This document shows, piece after piece, positions 38,931 to 42,276 of a stretch of DNA of 42,276 nucleotides. The DNA comes from Pseudonocardia sp. (GTDB taxonomy: Bacteria; Actinomycetota; Actinomycetes; Mycobacteriales; Pseudonocardiaceae): the NCBI GenBank assembly GCA_025465235.1, contig JAODNO010000615.1, positions 1 through 42,276 on the forward strand, in the 5' to 3' direction. The notes under the pieces were generated by a model that saw nothing but the letters and a program-made list of their open reading frames with translations, was not told the origin of the DNA and searched no databases. Numbering within the stretch: the first letter of the stretch is position 1; each line of letters opens with the position of its first letter. Both the position numbers and the translations under genes were made by a program.

Positions 38931-39728
38931 TCAGCGGAAGCGCGAGAAGTCCGGGGGCCGCTTCTCGGCGAACGCCCGCGCCCCCTCCATGCCCTCTTCG
39001 CCGTGCGCGTACTCCTCGAGCCCGTCGAAGGCGAGGTGGGAGATGCCGCTGATGTGGTCGGTGTCGGCGTTGAACGAGTGCTTGAGGAACTTGAGCGCCG
39101 TCGGCGAGTACGAGCCGATCTTCCGTGCCCACGCCCGTGCCGTGTCGAGCAGGTCCGCGGCCGGGACGACCTCGTTGACCAGGCCCCAGCGCTCGGCGGT
39201 GGCGGCGTCGTAGCGGTCGAGCAGGAACCAGATCTGCCGCGCCCGCTTCTCCCCCACGACGCGGGCGAGGTAGGCCGACCCGAACCCGGCGTCGAAGGAG
39301 CCGACGCGGGGTCCGGCCTGGGCGAACGTCGCATGCTCCGCCGCCACCGTGAGGTCGCAGAGCACGTGCAGCACGTGGCCACCGCCGATCGCGATGCCGT
39401 TGACGGCCGCGATCACCGGCTTGGGGATGTCCCGGATGATCCGGTGGAGCTGCTCGACCTCGAAGGTCCCCCACTCCGTCTCGCCGTAGCCGCCGGTCTC
39501 CGCGCGCTCCTTGACGTCGCCCCCGGTGCAGAACGCCCGCTCCCCGGCGCCCGTCAGGATGACCGCCGCGACCCGACGGTCGGCCCACGCGTGCTTGAAC
39601 GCGGAGATCAACTCATCGACCGTGCGGCCGCGGAAGGAGTTCAGCCGCTCCTGCCGGTCGATCGTGATCACGGCGTGGTTGTCGTCCTCCACGGCGTAGC
39701 CGATGTCGGTGAACTCGTCGATCCGCAT
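38931..39728 (-). CDS. MenB/BadI-like crotonase (enoyl-CoA hydratase / ring-cleaving hydrolase)
   Basis: The 265-residue crotonase-fold enzyme has the oxyanion-hole segments AFCTGGDVKER (about 66-76) and AIGGGHVLHVLCDLTVAAE (about 107-125), and the MenB/BadI-specific GPRVGSFDAGFGSAYLARVV (about 133-152), ending AFAEKRPPDFSRF. MenB closes the naphthoquinone ring and BadI hydrolytically opens 2-ketocyclohexane carboxyl-CoA; the sequence alone does not separate them. Context (aryl-CoA ligase, PaaX, SDR, Rid protein) favours a ring-opening role over menaquinone synthesis, as no men gene is near. The ATG at 39728 lacks a clear ribosome site. It is divergent from the SDR across 45 bp. Confidence 0.82.
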   Translation of the reverse strand: MRIDEFTDIGYAVEDDNHAVITIDRQERLNSFRGRTVDELISAFKHAWADRRVAAVILTGAGERAFCTGGDVKERAETGGYGETEWGTFEVEQLHRIIRDIPKPVIAAVNGIAIGGGHVLHVLCDLTVAAEHATFAQAGPRVGSFDAGFGSAYLARVVGEKRARQIWFLLDRYDAATAERWGLVNEVVPAADLLDTARAWARKIGSYSPTALKFLKHSFNADTDHISGISHLAFDGLEEYAHGEEGMEGARAFAEKRPPDFSRFR

Positions 39729-39773
39729 GCTGCGATGTTGACGGCCGTCACCGTCGCTTGACAAGCTCGGCGG

Positions 39774-40532
39774 GTGGACGACGCCAGACGCTGTCTGGTC
39801 ACCGGAGCGGGTCGCGGGATCGGGGCGGCGGTCGCGCGGAGGCTCTCGGCTGCAGGACTTTCCGTGGCGCTCACCGCTCGCAGCGCAGGCGAGCTCGAGG
39901 CGCTGGCCGCAGAGCTGCCGGGTCGGTCGATGGTCGTGCCGGCCGATGTCACCGCACCGGACGCCGTCGAGAGCGTCTTCGCCGAGGTGGAGAGGGCGTG
40001 GGGGCCGGTCGAGGTGCTCGTGCTGAACGCGGGCGCCGGGACGTCCGCCCCGCTGCAGCGCACCACCGACGCCGACTGGCAGCGGATGCTCGACCTCAAC
40101 CTCACCGCCCCGTTCCGGATGCTGCGCCGGGCCGTGCCGGGAATGGTGGAACAGGGCTTCGGCCGGGTGGTCGCCATCGCGTCGGTGGCCGCCAAGCGGG
40201 GTGAGCCGTACATCTCGGCCTACACCGCGAGCAAGCACGGGCTGCTCGGGCTCGTGCGCTCGGCGGCAAGTGAGCTCGCGACCACCGGCGTCACCGTCAA
40301 CGCCGTTTGCCCCGCCTACGTCGACACGCCGATGACCGACGCCACCGTCGCCTCCATCAGCTCCACCACCGGCCGCACCCCCGAGCAGGCCCGCGAGGTC
40401 CTGGAGCGCCGGCAGCCGATCGGCAGGCTCGTCACCCCGGACGAGGTGGCCGACGCGGTGCTGCTGTGCGTCACGAGCGGGGCGATCACCGGCCAGGGCA
40501 TCAACGTCGACGGCGGGGCGGTCCAGTCGTGA
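39774..40532 (+). CDS. Short-chain dehydrogenase/reductase
   Basis: The 252-residue classical SDR has the cofactor loop VTGAGRGIG (about 9-17), an NAG motif (LNAGAG), the catalytic Ser in IASVAAKRG, YTASK with the catalytic Tyr and Lys, and the C-terminal ITGQGINVDGGAV. An Arg after the second strand (TARSAGEL) suggests NADP(H) preference. In aryl-CoA loci such enzymes act as 3-hydroxyacyl-CoA dehydrogenases. The start is GTG at 39774. The Rid-family gene follows 13 bp later. Confidence 0.9.
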   Translation: MDDARRCLVTGAGRGIGAAVARRLSAAGLSVALTARSAGELEALAAELPGRSMVVPADVTAPDAVESVFAEVERAWGPVEVLVLNAGAGTSAPLQRTTDADWQRMLDLNLTAPFRMLRRAVPGMVEQGFGRVVAIASVAAKRGEPYISAYTASKHGLLGLVRSAASELATTGVTVNAVCPAYVDTPMTDATVASISSTTGRTPEQAREVLERRQPIGRLVTPDEVADAVLLCVTSGAITGQGINVDGGAVQS

Positions 40533-40545
40533 GGTCGGTGCACTC

Positions 40546-40962
40546 GTGATCGAGCGCATCAACCCGCCGGAGCTGGTCCGGCCCTCCGGGTTCGCCCACG
40601 CCGTGGTGGCGACCGGACGCATGGTGTTCCTGGCCGGCCAGACCGCGCTGGACGCCGACGGGCGGATCGTCCCTGGCGGCCTGGTGGTGCAGTTCGAGCG
40701 GGCGTTGCAGAACCTGCTGGTCGCACTGCGGACCGCCGGCGGCGCCCCGGAGCACCTGGCGCAGCTGACGATCTACATCGTCGACATGGACGATTATCGT
40801 GCCCGCGCCCGCGAGATCGGCGCGGTCTGGCAGCGGCTGGTCGGGAGGCAGTATCCGGCGACGGCTGGCATCGGTGTAGCGCGGCTGTGGGATGTCGAGG
40901 CGCTGGTGGAGCTGCAGGGCAGCGCAGTGCTGCCCGCCGACGACGGGGCGGCCGAAGGATGA
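40546..40962 (+). CDS. Rid-family (YjgF/YER057c) protein without the canonical arginine
   Basis: The 138-residue Rid-fold protein has FAHAVVATGRMVFLAGQTALD at the N-terminus, QNLLVALRTAGGAPEHLAQLTIYIVDMDDY in the middle, and YPATAGIGVARLWDVEALVELQGSAV at the end. Archetypal RidA enamine/imine deaminases have PxRSxVEVxxLP with an essential Arg; here that position is Thr (PATAGIGVARL), as in other Rid subfamilies. It may handle an enamine or CoA-linked intermediate in the local pathway, or be structural. The start is GTG at 40546. It is an operon partner of the SDR and convergent with paaX. Confidence 0.85.
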   Translation: MIERINPPELVRPSGFAHAVVATGRMVFLAGQTALDADGRIVPGGLVVQFERALQNLLVALRTAGGAPEHLAQLTIYIVDMDDYRARAREIGAVWQRLVGRQYPATAGIGVARLWDVEALVELQGSAVLPADDGAAEG

Positions 40963-41056
40963 GCCGCGCTCAGCGCGCGTCCTGCTCGCCGATCTGGCCG
41001 GCCGGGACGGTTCGCAGGCATTGCTCGTCACCGAGGCGCCTGCCCGCGCTTGAGGG

Positions 41057-41902
41057 TCAGCGTCCCGCGATCAGCTGCCGTGCGTGCACCCGTGCCGGCT
41101 CGGCCAGCCGATCCGCGAGCTCGGCGAACAGCTCCGCCGCGCGCACCCCGTTCCAGCGCGGGGGCAGCAGGTGGAGCGGCAGCCCGGGGTCGGCGTAGGG
41201 CAGCCGCCGCCAGTCCGTCACCAGCCGCACGTAGTCGGCGAACGCCGCCGCCTGGTCCGGCGTCCGCCGCCGTGACCACCGCGCCCGCAACGGGCGATGC
41301 CGGTCGAGGAACGCAGCGTAGAGATCGCGCAGCCCGTCGAGGTCCCACCATGCGCGCACGGCCGAGGGCAGGCCGCCTGCGGCGAGGTGCTCGCCGCGGA
41401 ACAGCTGGGCGTAGCCGTCGAGACGGAGCCTGCGCAGCATGTCGCTCACCTCGCCTGCCCGATGCCCCCGCGCGATCCAGACGCCCGGAGCGGCGGTTCC
41501 GAACCCGAGCCGGGACAGCTGCGTCCGCAGCGCATGCCGCTTCTCCCGCTCCGACTCCGGCACCGAGAACACCACGAGCACCCAGCCGTCGGCCTCGGTG
41601 GCGCGGCGCCGTGCGAAGATCCGCACGTCGCCGTCGTCGAGGATCTCCCGCGCCGCCGCGGTGAGCACGTACCCGGCGCTGCCGTCGCGGCGGTCGGGGG
41701 CGAGCAGGCCACGGCGCTTGAGCCGCGAGATCGACGATCGAACGGCCGGCTCGTCGACGCCCAGCCCGGCCAGCAGGCGCACCAGCGCCGCCACCGAGAG
41801 GCGTCCGCCGTCGTCGCGGGCGTAGAGGCCGTACAGCGTGACGATCAGCTGCCGCGGCTGCACGACACCCGCGACCACGGGCGCTTCCTCGACGGTGGTC
41901 AC
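41057..41902 (-). CDS. PaaX-family transcriptional regulator
   Basis: The 281-residue protein has an N-terminal winged helix (about 15-85: QLIVTLYGLYARDDGGRLSVA, VDEPAVRSSISRLKRRGLL), a central domain with GWVLVVFSVPESEREKRHALR and LGFGTAAPGVWIA, and a C-terminal PaaX_C-like helical part. PaaX proteins are repressors of aryl-CoA catabolism released by a CoA thioester inducer. The GTG at 41902 is chosen because TATCGT at 41914-41909 lies 6 nt upstream (leaderless); a GTG at 41908 is possible. It is divergent from the aryl-CoA ligase. Confidence 0.88.
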   Translation of the reverse strand: MTTVEEAPVVAGVVQPRQLIVTLYGLYARDDGGRLSVAALVRLLAGLGVDEPAVRSSISRLKRRGLLAPDRRDGSAGYVLTAAAREILDDGDVRIFARRRATEADGWVLVVFSVPESEREKRHALRTQLSRLGFGTAAPGVWIARGHRAGEVSDMLRRLRLDGYAQLFRGEHLAAGGLPSAVRAWWDLDGLRDLYAAFLDRHRPLRARWSRRRTPDQAAAFADYVRLVTDWRRLPYADPGLPLHLLPPRWNGVRAAELFAELADRLAEPARVHARQLIAGR

Positions 41903-41908
41903 GCGCAC

Positions 41909-41914
41909 ACGATA
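41909..41914 (-). promoter_or_regulatory. -10 box of leaderless paaX mRNA
   Basis: TATCGT on the minus strand ends 6 nt before the GTG at 41902, inside the divergent region shared with the ligase gene. Confidence 0.45.
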
Positions 41915-41941
41915 TCGGCTCGGCCTCCACCTCGCGCTCGC

Positions 41942-41969
41942 TTGACTATCGTCACCACAACGCCATACT
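41942..41969 (+). promoter_or_regulatory. Promoter of the aryl-CoA ligase gene
   Basis: TTGACT (41942-41947), 16 nt, CATACT (41964-41969). It lies in the 103-bp region divergent from paaX, where a PaaX operator would be expected. Confidence 0.5.
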
Positions 41970-42005
41970 CGATCCGGGTAGCATTCGCTCGGGGAGGTGC
42001 CGCCC

Positions 42006-42276
42006 ATGGCCACTGCCCGCAGCGCCCATATCGATCCGTTCTGCCGAGAGCACCTGCCGCCCCGTGAGCAGTGGCCGCAGCTGTGGTTCGACCTCCCCGA
42101 GCCGCAGTACCCCGAGCACCTCAACGCCGCGCAGGCTCTGCTCAGCGGCCCGCCGGACAACCGGCCGTGCGTGCGGGGGTCCGGCGAGGAGTGGACGTAC
42201 GGGGAGCTGCGCCGGCGGGCCCACCAGATCGCGGCTGTGCTCATCGACGATCTCGGCCTCGTGCCCGGCAACAGGG
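42006..42276 (+). CDS. 2-aminobenzoate-CoA ligase-like AMP-binding protein (N-terminus only)
   Basis: The 90 visible residues (SAHIDPFCREHLPPREQWPQ, FDLPEPQYPEHLN, WTYGELRRRAHQIAAVLIDD, LGLVPGNR) match the N-terminus of benzoate-CoA ligase-family proteins annotated as 2-aminobenzoate-CoA ligases in actinomycetes, from memory of the family. It activates an aromatic acid to its CoA thioester. GGGAGG lies 9-10 nt before the ATG. It is divergent from paaX. The rest is beyond the window, so substrate residues cannot be read. Confidence 0.75.
   Translation, partial: MATARSAHIDPFCREHLPPREQWPQLWFDLPEPQYPEHLNAAQALLSGPPDNRPCVRGSGEEWTYGELRRRAHQIAAVLIDDLGLVPGNR

Follow-up and report, generated by a model that had tools for sequence, protein, structure and literature searches.

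A Rid-family protein that accompanies the ring monooxygenase/reductase is probably a dedicated hydrolase of a CoA-bound enamine in the aerobic anthraniloyl-CoA pathway

Which enzyme removes the amino group in aerobic anthranilate degradation via coenzyme A (CoA) thioesters, between the product of the ring monooxygenase/reductase and the ring-opened products? This question is raised by the end of a 42,276-nucleotide stretch of Pseudonocardia sp. DNA (contig JAODNO010000615.1; hereafter the window, i.e. the whole stretch analysed), where a gene for a Rid (YjgF/YER057c/UK114) protein without the RidA arginine (positions 40546–40962, plus strand) lies among genes for a crotonase, a short-chain dehydrogenase/reductase (SDR), a PaaX-like regulator and the start of a CoA ligase. 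An earlier note on this DNA had suggested that the Rid protein acts on a CoA-bound enamine and that a BadI-like crotonase then opens the ring. Comparisons across genomes, loci and plasmids indicated that the Rid protein is probably a dedicated hydrolase of this enamine in the anthraniloyl-CoA pathway. In the proposed sequence, the ligase would convert anthranilate to anthraniloyl-CoA and a fusion of a flavin adenine dinucleotide (FAD)-monooxygenase with an old yellow enzyme (OYE) would yield the cyclic enamine 2-amino-5-oxocyclohex-1-ene-1-carbonyl-CoA, following the published chemistry of this enzyme class. The Rid protein would then hydrolyse the C2 enamine/imine to ammonia and 2,5-dioxocyclohexane-carbonyl-CoA. 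As the step between enamine and dione is an enamine hydrolysis, it is of the reaction type of Rid proteins.

A dedicated enamine-hydrolysing Rid protein predicts that its presence tracks that of the ring enzyme. The distributions of both were examined in 60 genomes, comprising that of the window and those of 59 relatives. Orthologue-level Rid proteins (at least 109 bits; next best match 60.7 bits) were detected in 20 genomes and anthranilate-type fusion enzymes in 19, the latter being those most like the sequence on contig C722 of the window's assembly (at least 522 bits; next 399; a line drawn after seeing the gap). All 19 genomes with the anthranilate-type enzyme contained the Rid orthologue as compared to one of the 41 without it, namely G047 (Fisher test, 1e-14, not corrected for kinship). 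Full-length fusion enzymes below the 522-bit line were present in G020 (as a second copy), G017 and G023 (365–399 bits) and also in G010; the corresponding loci (L067–L070) contained a gentisate-1,2-dioxygenase-like gene and lacked Rid, and no Rid orthologue was found genome-wide in G017, G023 or G010. Two of the dioxygenase-like genes had TIGR02272 as their best model, both below its cut-off of 442.1 bits (310.8 for L068 and 330.4).

The association was then assessed at the level of loci. A named-genome scan was seeded with an alignment of fusion enzymes from Rid-bearing loci and its best 80 of at least 592 loci were combined with the relatives' loci and with plasmid loci, giving 120 labelled full-length enzyme loci. 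Thirteen plasmid loci, chosen mostly because no Rid row was listed for them, were added last and labelled by hand; L049 and L114, both within the 120, are the same place in one organism (Pseudonocardia asaccharolytica). Rid was nearby in 92 of the 120 loci: 91 had Rid without gentisate dioxygenase and one had both, as compared to 13 with the dioxygenase but no Rid and 15 with neither. For the 13, being of the salicylate type, an enamine would not be expected. Eleven of these 15 have a short flank (i.e. less than 8 kb on one side), and eight of the 12 genomes searched whole hold an orthologue-level Rid at some place in the genome (108.9–168 bits), in G061 on a contig other than that of the enzyme. 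The genome of L060, also among the 15, likewise has Rid on another contig. As the orthologue occurs about once per genome where present, proximity by chance would be expected at well under one percent per locus. The sole locus with both genes, L089 of Geodermatophilus telluris, combines a dioxygenase-like gene with crotonase, SDR and Rid; a single fusion enzyme was detected in its genome at the threshold applied.

In an enzyme tree with a haloarchaeal outgroup, the gentisate-type loci without Rid fell in four places, i.e. L233 with L240, L231 with L238, L148 alone and an eight-leaf actinobacterial clade. The node separating L148 from the actinobacterial clade has a support of 0.75, so that three or four switches are implied. 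The partial enzyme loci L006 and L071 lay outside the earlier version of this tree and L241 outside the 13-locus extended version. Five named gentisate-type genomes were searched whole: three (L148, L157 and L158) contained no Rid orthologue and the two Streptomyces genomes (L151 and L162) contained a Rid and, at distances of 3.7 and 5.2 kb from it, respectively, another fusion enzyme, this one of the anthranilate type.

Plasmids exhibited the same pattern. Sixty of 90 records were taken from a spread list containing many near-identical strains; Rid positions came from 60 of 81 listed rows together with earlier rows, and 13 uncovered records were scanned, as was Haladaptatus (already among the 47 records covered). 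Among the 60 listed records with the enzyme, 54 had Rid within 15 kb, four were of the gentisate type and two had neither gene. The pairing extended to three haloarchaeal plasmids, from Haladaptatus, Natronosalvus and Natronococcus. The earlier note's idea of a Rid protein dedicated to a CoA-bound enamine thus gained strong comparative support, with Rid following the ring enzyme in bacteria and on these plasmids. Each of the haloarchaeal loci L228, L230 and L241 encodes a related monooxygenase (about 718–720 amino acids for L228 and L230), with genes for Rid, acyl-CoA dehydrogenase, SDR and enoyl-CoA hydratase-like proteins close by, and in L228 the monooxygenase gene adjoins one annotated as benzoate-CoA ligase family; these gene sets suggest an archaeal version of the pathway.

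Damage control is the known role of RidA (PMC4433059). The Rid protein could likewise quench stray 2-aminoacrylate or imines from pyridoxal phosphate-dependent enzymes such as kynureninase, being present because tryptophan breakdown feeds the cluster. Some loci do carry kynureninase and tryptophan dioxygenase genes, and kynurenine-pathway genes adjoining some loci were counted as support for the anthranilate role. However, most surveyed loci, including the 42-kb window, keep Rid without a kynureninase tag in the fetched stretch, the presence of Rid follows that of the ring enzyme, and the arginine needed for amino-acid-derived imines (PMC4433059) is gone. A general damage-control function is hence very unlikely.

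The dedicated-hydrolase assignment was next set against the protein itself. The window Rid scored 65.9 bits on PF01042 (gathering threshold 27.3), placing it in the Rid family, and its AlphaFold2 monomer model, with a pLDDT of 94.2, is a confident fold prediction whose top Foldseek matches were YabJ and RidA structures. The RidA arginine (i.e. Arg105 in Escherichia coli numbering) is absent, as the earlier note had read it: PARSC of YabJ (5yu2) aligns with PATAG here and the arginine column is occupied by Thr106. Among 97 orthologue-level sequences, this column contains methionine in 85, threonine in 4, leucine in 4, valine in 3 and serine in 1. By contrast, the glutamate typical of Rid proteins is present as E122, which did not vary among 28 of 28 sequences; E122 is presumably equivalent to Glu120. 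Loss of the arginine with retention of the glutamate would be expected if the substrate carboxylate is a thioester. RidA requires the arginine to hold the free carboxylate, and this residue is essential for imine hydrolysis; serine is said to occupy this position in about 10% of RidA proteins, and in 2015 the roles of arginine-lacking Rid proteins were described as completely unknown (PMC4433059).

Chemical evidence comes from Arthrobacter sp. Rue61a, whose plasmid pAL1 has Rid beside the ligase/monooxygenase pair (gene numbers in the paper were matched to those of the record by order in this analysis). The expressed pAL1 ligase showed anthranilate-CoA ligase activity, and a C7H8O4-CoA ester, proposed to be a cyclohexanedione-carboxyl-CoA, was detected only in anthranilate-grown cells; a plasmid-free strain still grows on anthranilate via chromosomal paralogues (PMC3534580). 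The ester, if genuine, fits deamination before ring opening (PMC3534580). It could also stem from acid handling (PMC3534580), in which case the Rid protein might act later, on a ring-opened amino or enamine intermediate, the ring having been opened or reduced with the amino group attached.

The order of steps can also be considered through the genes downstream. Three sets alternate beside the constant Rid, and a few loci fit none of them by gene tags: the window-type crotonase and SDR (module A), an enoyl-CoA hydratase and acyl-CoA dehydrogenase, partly with SDR and found also in Thalassospira and Paracoccus (module B), and an FAH-family protein with a cupin and a TesB-like thioesterase, as in pAL1 and Rhodococcus (module C). 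Modules A and C both contain a protein that could hydrolyse a 1,3-dicarbonyl C–C bond (i.e. the MenB/BadI-like and FAH proteins, respectively). Cleavage of the BadI or FAH type needs a beta-ketone, so these candidates would require a C2 ketone, for which the amino group must have left beforehand. Module B, in which the steps may come in another order, speaks for later action. A later-acting Rid is on balance rather unlikely. The module argument is a hint only, since the FAH family does other reactions and the gentisate-type loci also carry an FAH gene. In Thalassospira (L087) and Paracoccus (L088), the genes for Rid and a small thioesterase share 11 and 8 bases, respectively, suggesting that the two proteins are translated in a coupled manner.

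Modules also bear on the other half of the earlier proposal. A crotonase of at least 74% identity adjoins Rid in the window and in only seven fetched loci; crotonase plus Rid was therefore rejected as a conserved unit. With the crotonase as one of three interchangeable modules, the conserved unit is Rid plus the monooxygenase/reductase and not Rid plus BadI, and the pairing of Rid with BadI was abandoned, all the more as the crotonase is not BadI.

The crotonase gene (38931–39728, minus strand) has orthologues of 74–97% identity beside Rid in L046, L047, L048, L052, L053, L089 and L168. Its best NCBIfam models were two MenB models, at 320 and 311 bits against cut-offs of 380 and 342.7, the latter being the MenB equivalog TIGR01929; on the badI model TIGR03210 it scored 285.9 bits against a cut-off of 467.6. 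In a crotonase tree it belonged to a third clade apart from the MenB and BadI sets (three annotated BadI proteins), this clade including several plasmid-borne enzymes. The crotonase retains the Ser/Asp pair that MenB and BadI share (Ser144/Asp146), but the tyrosine column that is invariant in both sets holds alanine, valine or threonine in the crotonase orthologues, with tyrosine or phenylalanine one column earlier; the pair and the C-terminal tyrosine are taken here to be catalytic residues. An identity as simple BadI was rejected from the curated score, the clade and the tyrosine column. MenB itself was likewise rejected: the enzyme is below cut-off and does not cluster with true MenB, which this genome encodes on contig C518 (420 bits, above cut-off). 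Further MenB-family paralogues outside the Rid locus occur in G020, G018 and G012 (L177–L179), scoring 325–332 bits on the MenB model and being about 69% identical to the window crotonase.

Hydrolytic opening of the beta-keto-thioester ring to 4-oxopimelyl-CoA by the crotonase is plausible from these comparisons, although less secure than the Rid step. The enzyme might instead act as a hydratase/isomerase, or be MenB-like and use a different substrate, the ring being opened by enzymes encoded elsewhere. Scores below the MenB and BadI cut-offs, the third clade, the altered tyrosine column and the Pseudonocardia asaccharolytica locus, which has Rid and SDR but no crotonase, all argue for such a role, while the retained Ser144/Asp146 pair and the position of the crotonase, which next to this Rid takes the place that an FAH or ECH/ACAD module has in other loci, speak for ring opening. 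On balance, another role for the crotonase is a serious but tentative possibility. The SDR could reduce the remaining ketone, before or after ring opening.

A different substrate must also be considered, as the NCBI name of the fusion enzyme would make this a salicylate cluster, with ligase, salicylyl-CoA 5-hydroxylase and gentisate as the route. The enzyme of L047 does exceed the cut-off of NCBIfam model PRK08255, 'bifunctional salicylyl-CoA 5-hydroxylase/oxidoreductase' (1171.5 versus 1078 bits), and the L047 ligase is slightly nearer to salicylate-type ligases than to the pAL1 ligase. Ligase sequence failed as a discriminator of substrate, however, as salicylate-type and anthranilate-type enzymes interleave in a tree of 82 ligases. 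No gentisate-dioxygenase-like gene was found in the fetched stretches of L046, L047, L048, L052 and L053, the fusion enzyme groups with Rid-bearing and not with gentisate-type sequences, and Rue61a, itself the owner of a cluster with Rid, can use anthranilate for growth but not salicylate (PMC3534580). A salicylate cluster is thus highly improbable, and the locus appears to be the edge of an aerobic anthranilate pathway via CoA thioesters, its fusion enzyme being in the same group as that of pAL1.

What was observed is the gene content, the co-occurrence, the residue pattern and the fact that Rid and the salicylate-type neighbour gene almost exclude each other; set against the assignment of a dedicated enamine hydrolase are the following points. 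The locus survey is not a random sample, having been seeded with Rid-bearing loci and limited to the best 80 of at least 592. One relative (G047) has a Rid protein of 52% identity and no ring enzyme at E 1e-60, and in G024 and G061, among others, Rid and the fusion enzyme are on different contigs. The genomes of L150, L131, L120 and L160, which are drafts or metagenome-assembled genomes, have the enzyme and no Rid orthologue was found in them; the plasmid loci L229 and L239, which have neither gene, are counted here as well. The L158 genome (G075) has two fusion enzymes about 59–60% identical to that of L047 and no Rid orthologue, and a distant Rid (80 bits) is present at two gentisate-type plasmid loci of Novosphingobium. 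Absence of the arginine is not specific to this group and only fits the idea of a dedicated enamine hydrolase: 29 of 29 more distant Rid proteins in the surveyed loci, gathered by similarity to the window Rid, likewise lack arginine in that column, so that its loss was dropped as a diagnostic. Rid proteins without the arginine have moreover been described as most likely not imine hydrolases (PMC4433059). The Rue61a cells had been quenched with formic acid and their extracts analysed at pH 3.5, and the enamine is reported to be unstable below pH 5 (PMC3534580); the C7H8O4-CoA dione may therefore be an artefact of acid handling, a caveat that lowered confidence in the Rid step. The enamine hydrolyses spontaneously in acid, and a catalyst may matter for rate only. 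The interleaved ligases and the altered tyrosine column of the crotonase belong on the same side, and the catalytic steps of Rid, crotonase and SDR were all inferred.

The apparent P450 and methyltransferase genes adjoining the G047 Rid (L061) were identified by reading of open reading frames (ORFs). Indolepyruvate ferredoxin oxidoreductase subunits are annotated next to the fusion enzyme in L240, and ORFs of L062 include a 743-amino-acid protein resembling indolepyruvate ferredoxin oxidoreductase beside an aryl-CoA-ligase-like gene.

The window is the entire contig (C286) of a 6.8-Mb Pseudonocardia assembly with 731 contigs and 89% completeness. All five genes named in the earlier note were present, as confirmed by an ORF check and NCBIfam/Pfam profile searches, and are not chance ORFs because the same set stands in L046, L047 and L048. 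The SDR gene (39774–40532, plus strand) ends 13 bases before the Rid start and encodes a 3-hydroxybutyrate dehydrogenase/FabG-like protein (best NCBIfam model PHB_DH, 209.7 bits, below the cut-off of 307.05); its orthologues adjoin Rid in module A loci and in some of those with module B. The regulator gene (41057–41902, minus strand) has a GTG start at 41902 and is divergent from the ligase gene. Its product has three PaaX Pfam domains above gathering and 151.5 bits on TIGR02277, below the cut-off of 264.55, and is by these profiles PaaX-like and not PaaX itself; it might act in repression until aryl-CoA appears. A PaaX-like relative was tagged at many actinobacterial loci of the survey. Before the ligase gene lies a promoter-like consensus match, TTGACT and CATACT separated by 16 bases (41942–41969, plus strand), in which both hexamers are identical in all five aligned loci (i.e. 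the window, L046, L047, L048 and L050). The ligase gene starts with an ATG at 42006 and is ended by the contig edge at 42276 (plus strand), leaving 271 bases and about 90 residues with 25.1 bits on the AMP-binding Pfam domain, below the gathering threshold of 29.9. The best NCBIfam model of its full-length orthologue in L047 was the benzoate-CoA ligase family, also below cut-off.

The last 127 bases of the window (42150–42276, no strand assigned) are identical to the end of contig C722 (L006:9311–9437, minus strand). The minus strand of C722 extends 9.3 kb beyond this overlap and encodes the C-terminal end of the FAD-monooxygenase followed by the OYE domain (L006:7891–9302), as judged by profile and structure comparison with an orthologue; the two halves of the fusion enzyme of L047 are matched by solved structures of OYE and VioD type. 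The predicted ring monooxygenase/reductase for which the earlier note had pointed beyond position 42276 is thus present just past the join. In relatives the locus is intact: L047 of G016 is complete, with crotonase, SDR, Rid, PaaX-like regulator, ligase (531 amino acids) and monooxygenase/reductase (798 amino acids), and ligase and fusion enzyme are both nearly full length in L046, L047, L048 and L050. In the window's assembly, however, both are truncated at the join. As compared to L047, 2258 bases are absent (query 297–2554), i.e. most of the ligase and about 325 monooxygenase residues, and C722 fuses ligase codon ~95 to monooxygenase residue ~326 (join at L006:9302–9303). This gap is a deletion or a misassembly, i.e. 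a branch of the assembly.

A true 2.26-kb deletion, by which the beginning of the ligase gene became joined to an internal part of the monooxygenase gene, would mean that the pathway of this genome is dead. C722 does run from one gene straight into the other, and scoring of 40 of the 825 candidate places did not reveal the absent stretch on another contig above paralogue level. The assembly is fragmented and incomplete, however, relatives carry the intact locus and the exact end overlap points to an assembly-graph branch, such that an intact version may exist in the sample. A dead pathway is therefore conceivable, and somewhat doubtful.

If the dedicated-hydrolase assignment is right, it would supply the enzyme for the deamination step and explain what at least some Rid proteins without the arginine do. 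The arginine-less group studied here would probably be the missing deaminase of the aerobic anthraniloyl-CoA pathway, specialised for a CoA-thioester enamine, travelling with the ring enzyme in Actinomycetota, Pseudomonadota, Gemmatimonadota and haloarchaea and dropped several times on a switch to salicylyl-CoA. Rid would then be a genomic marker separating 2-aminobenzoyl-CoA enzymes from correctly named salicylyl-CoA 5-hydroxylases; the database name may be wrong for many surveyed loci, for which Rid or gentisate dioxygenase as neighbour provides a rule. A 2022 curation effort omitted this pathway for lack of knowledge (PMC9007349). No assignment of a Rid protein to the anthraniloyl-CoA pathway was found in the open-access literature searched, the available text of which lies outside the primary Azoarcus and pAL1 cluster papers, where prior notice is possible.

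Comparison with known systems places the locus as follows. The aerobic 2-aminobenzoyl-CoA pathway of Azoarcus evansii and Rue61a pAL1 shares the CoA ligase and the FAD-monooxygenase/OYE fusion, and pAL1 also has Rid; pAL1 differs in having FAH, cupin and thioesterase genes where the window-type module has crotonase and SDR. BadI (i.e. 2-ketocyclohexanecarboxyl-CoA hydrolase) resembles the crotonase in family, Ser/Asp pair and the proposed hydrolysis of a 2-keto ring CoA ester; the crotonase differs in its score (286 versus 467.6 bits), its separate clade and the lost tyrosine column, and the neighbours of BadI, badH, aliA and aliB (L191 and L192), are not those of the crotonase. The window Rid shares the fold and the conserved glutamate with RidA and the Rid1–Rid3 groups but not the arginine essential for imine hydrolysis, and absence of arginine with retention of glutamate matches the descriptions of groups Rid4–Rid7 (PMC4433059). 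Predicted Rid genes also occur in benzoate and catechol regulons (PMC6449761). The closest functional parallel is provided by 2-aminomuconate deaminase AmnE and related Rid deaminases, which are Rid-fold enzymes dedicated to an enamine in aromatic catabolism; the substrate of AmnE is a free acid and its cleft contains Arg117 (PMC6742747), whereas the proposed substrate of the window Rid is a CoA thioester and its arginine is replaced.

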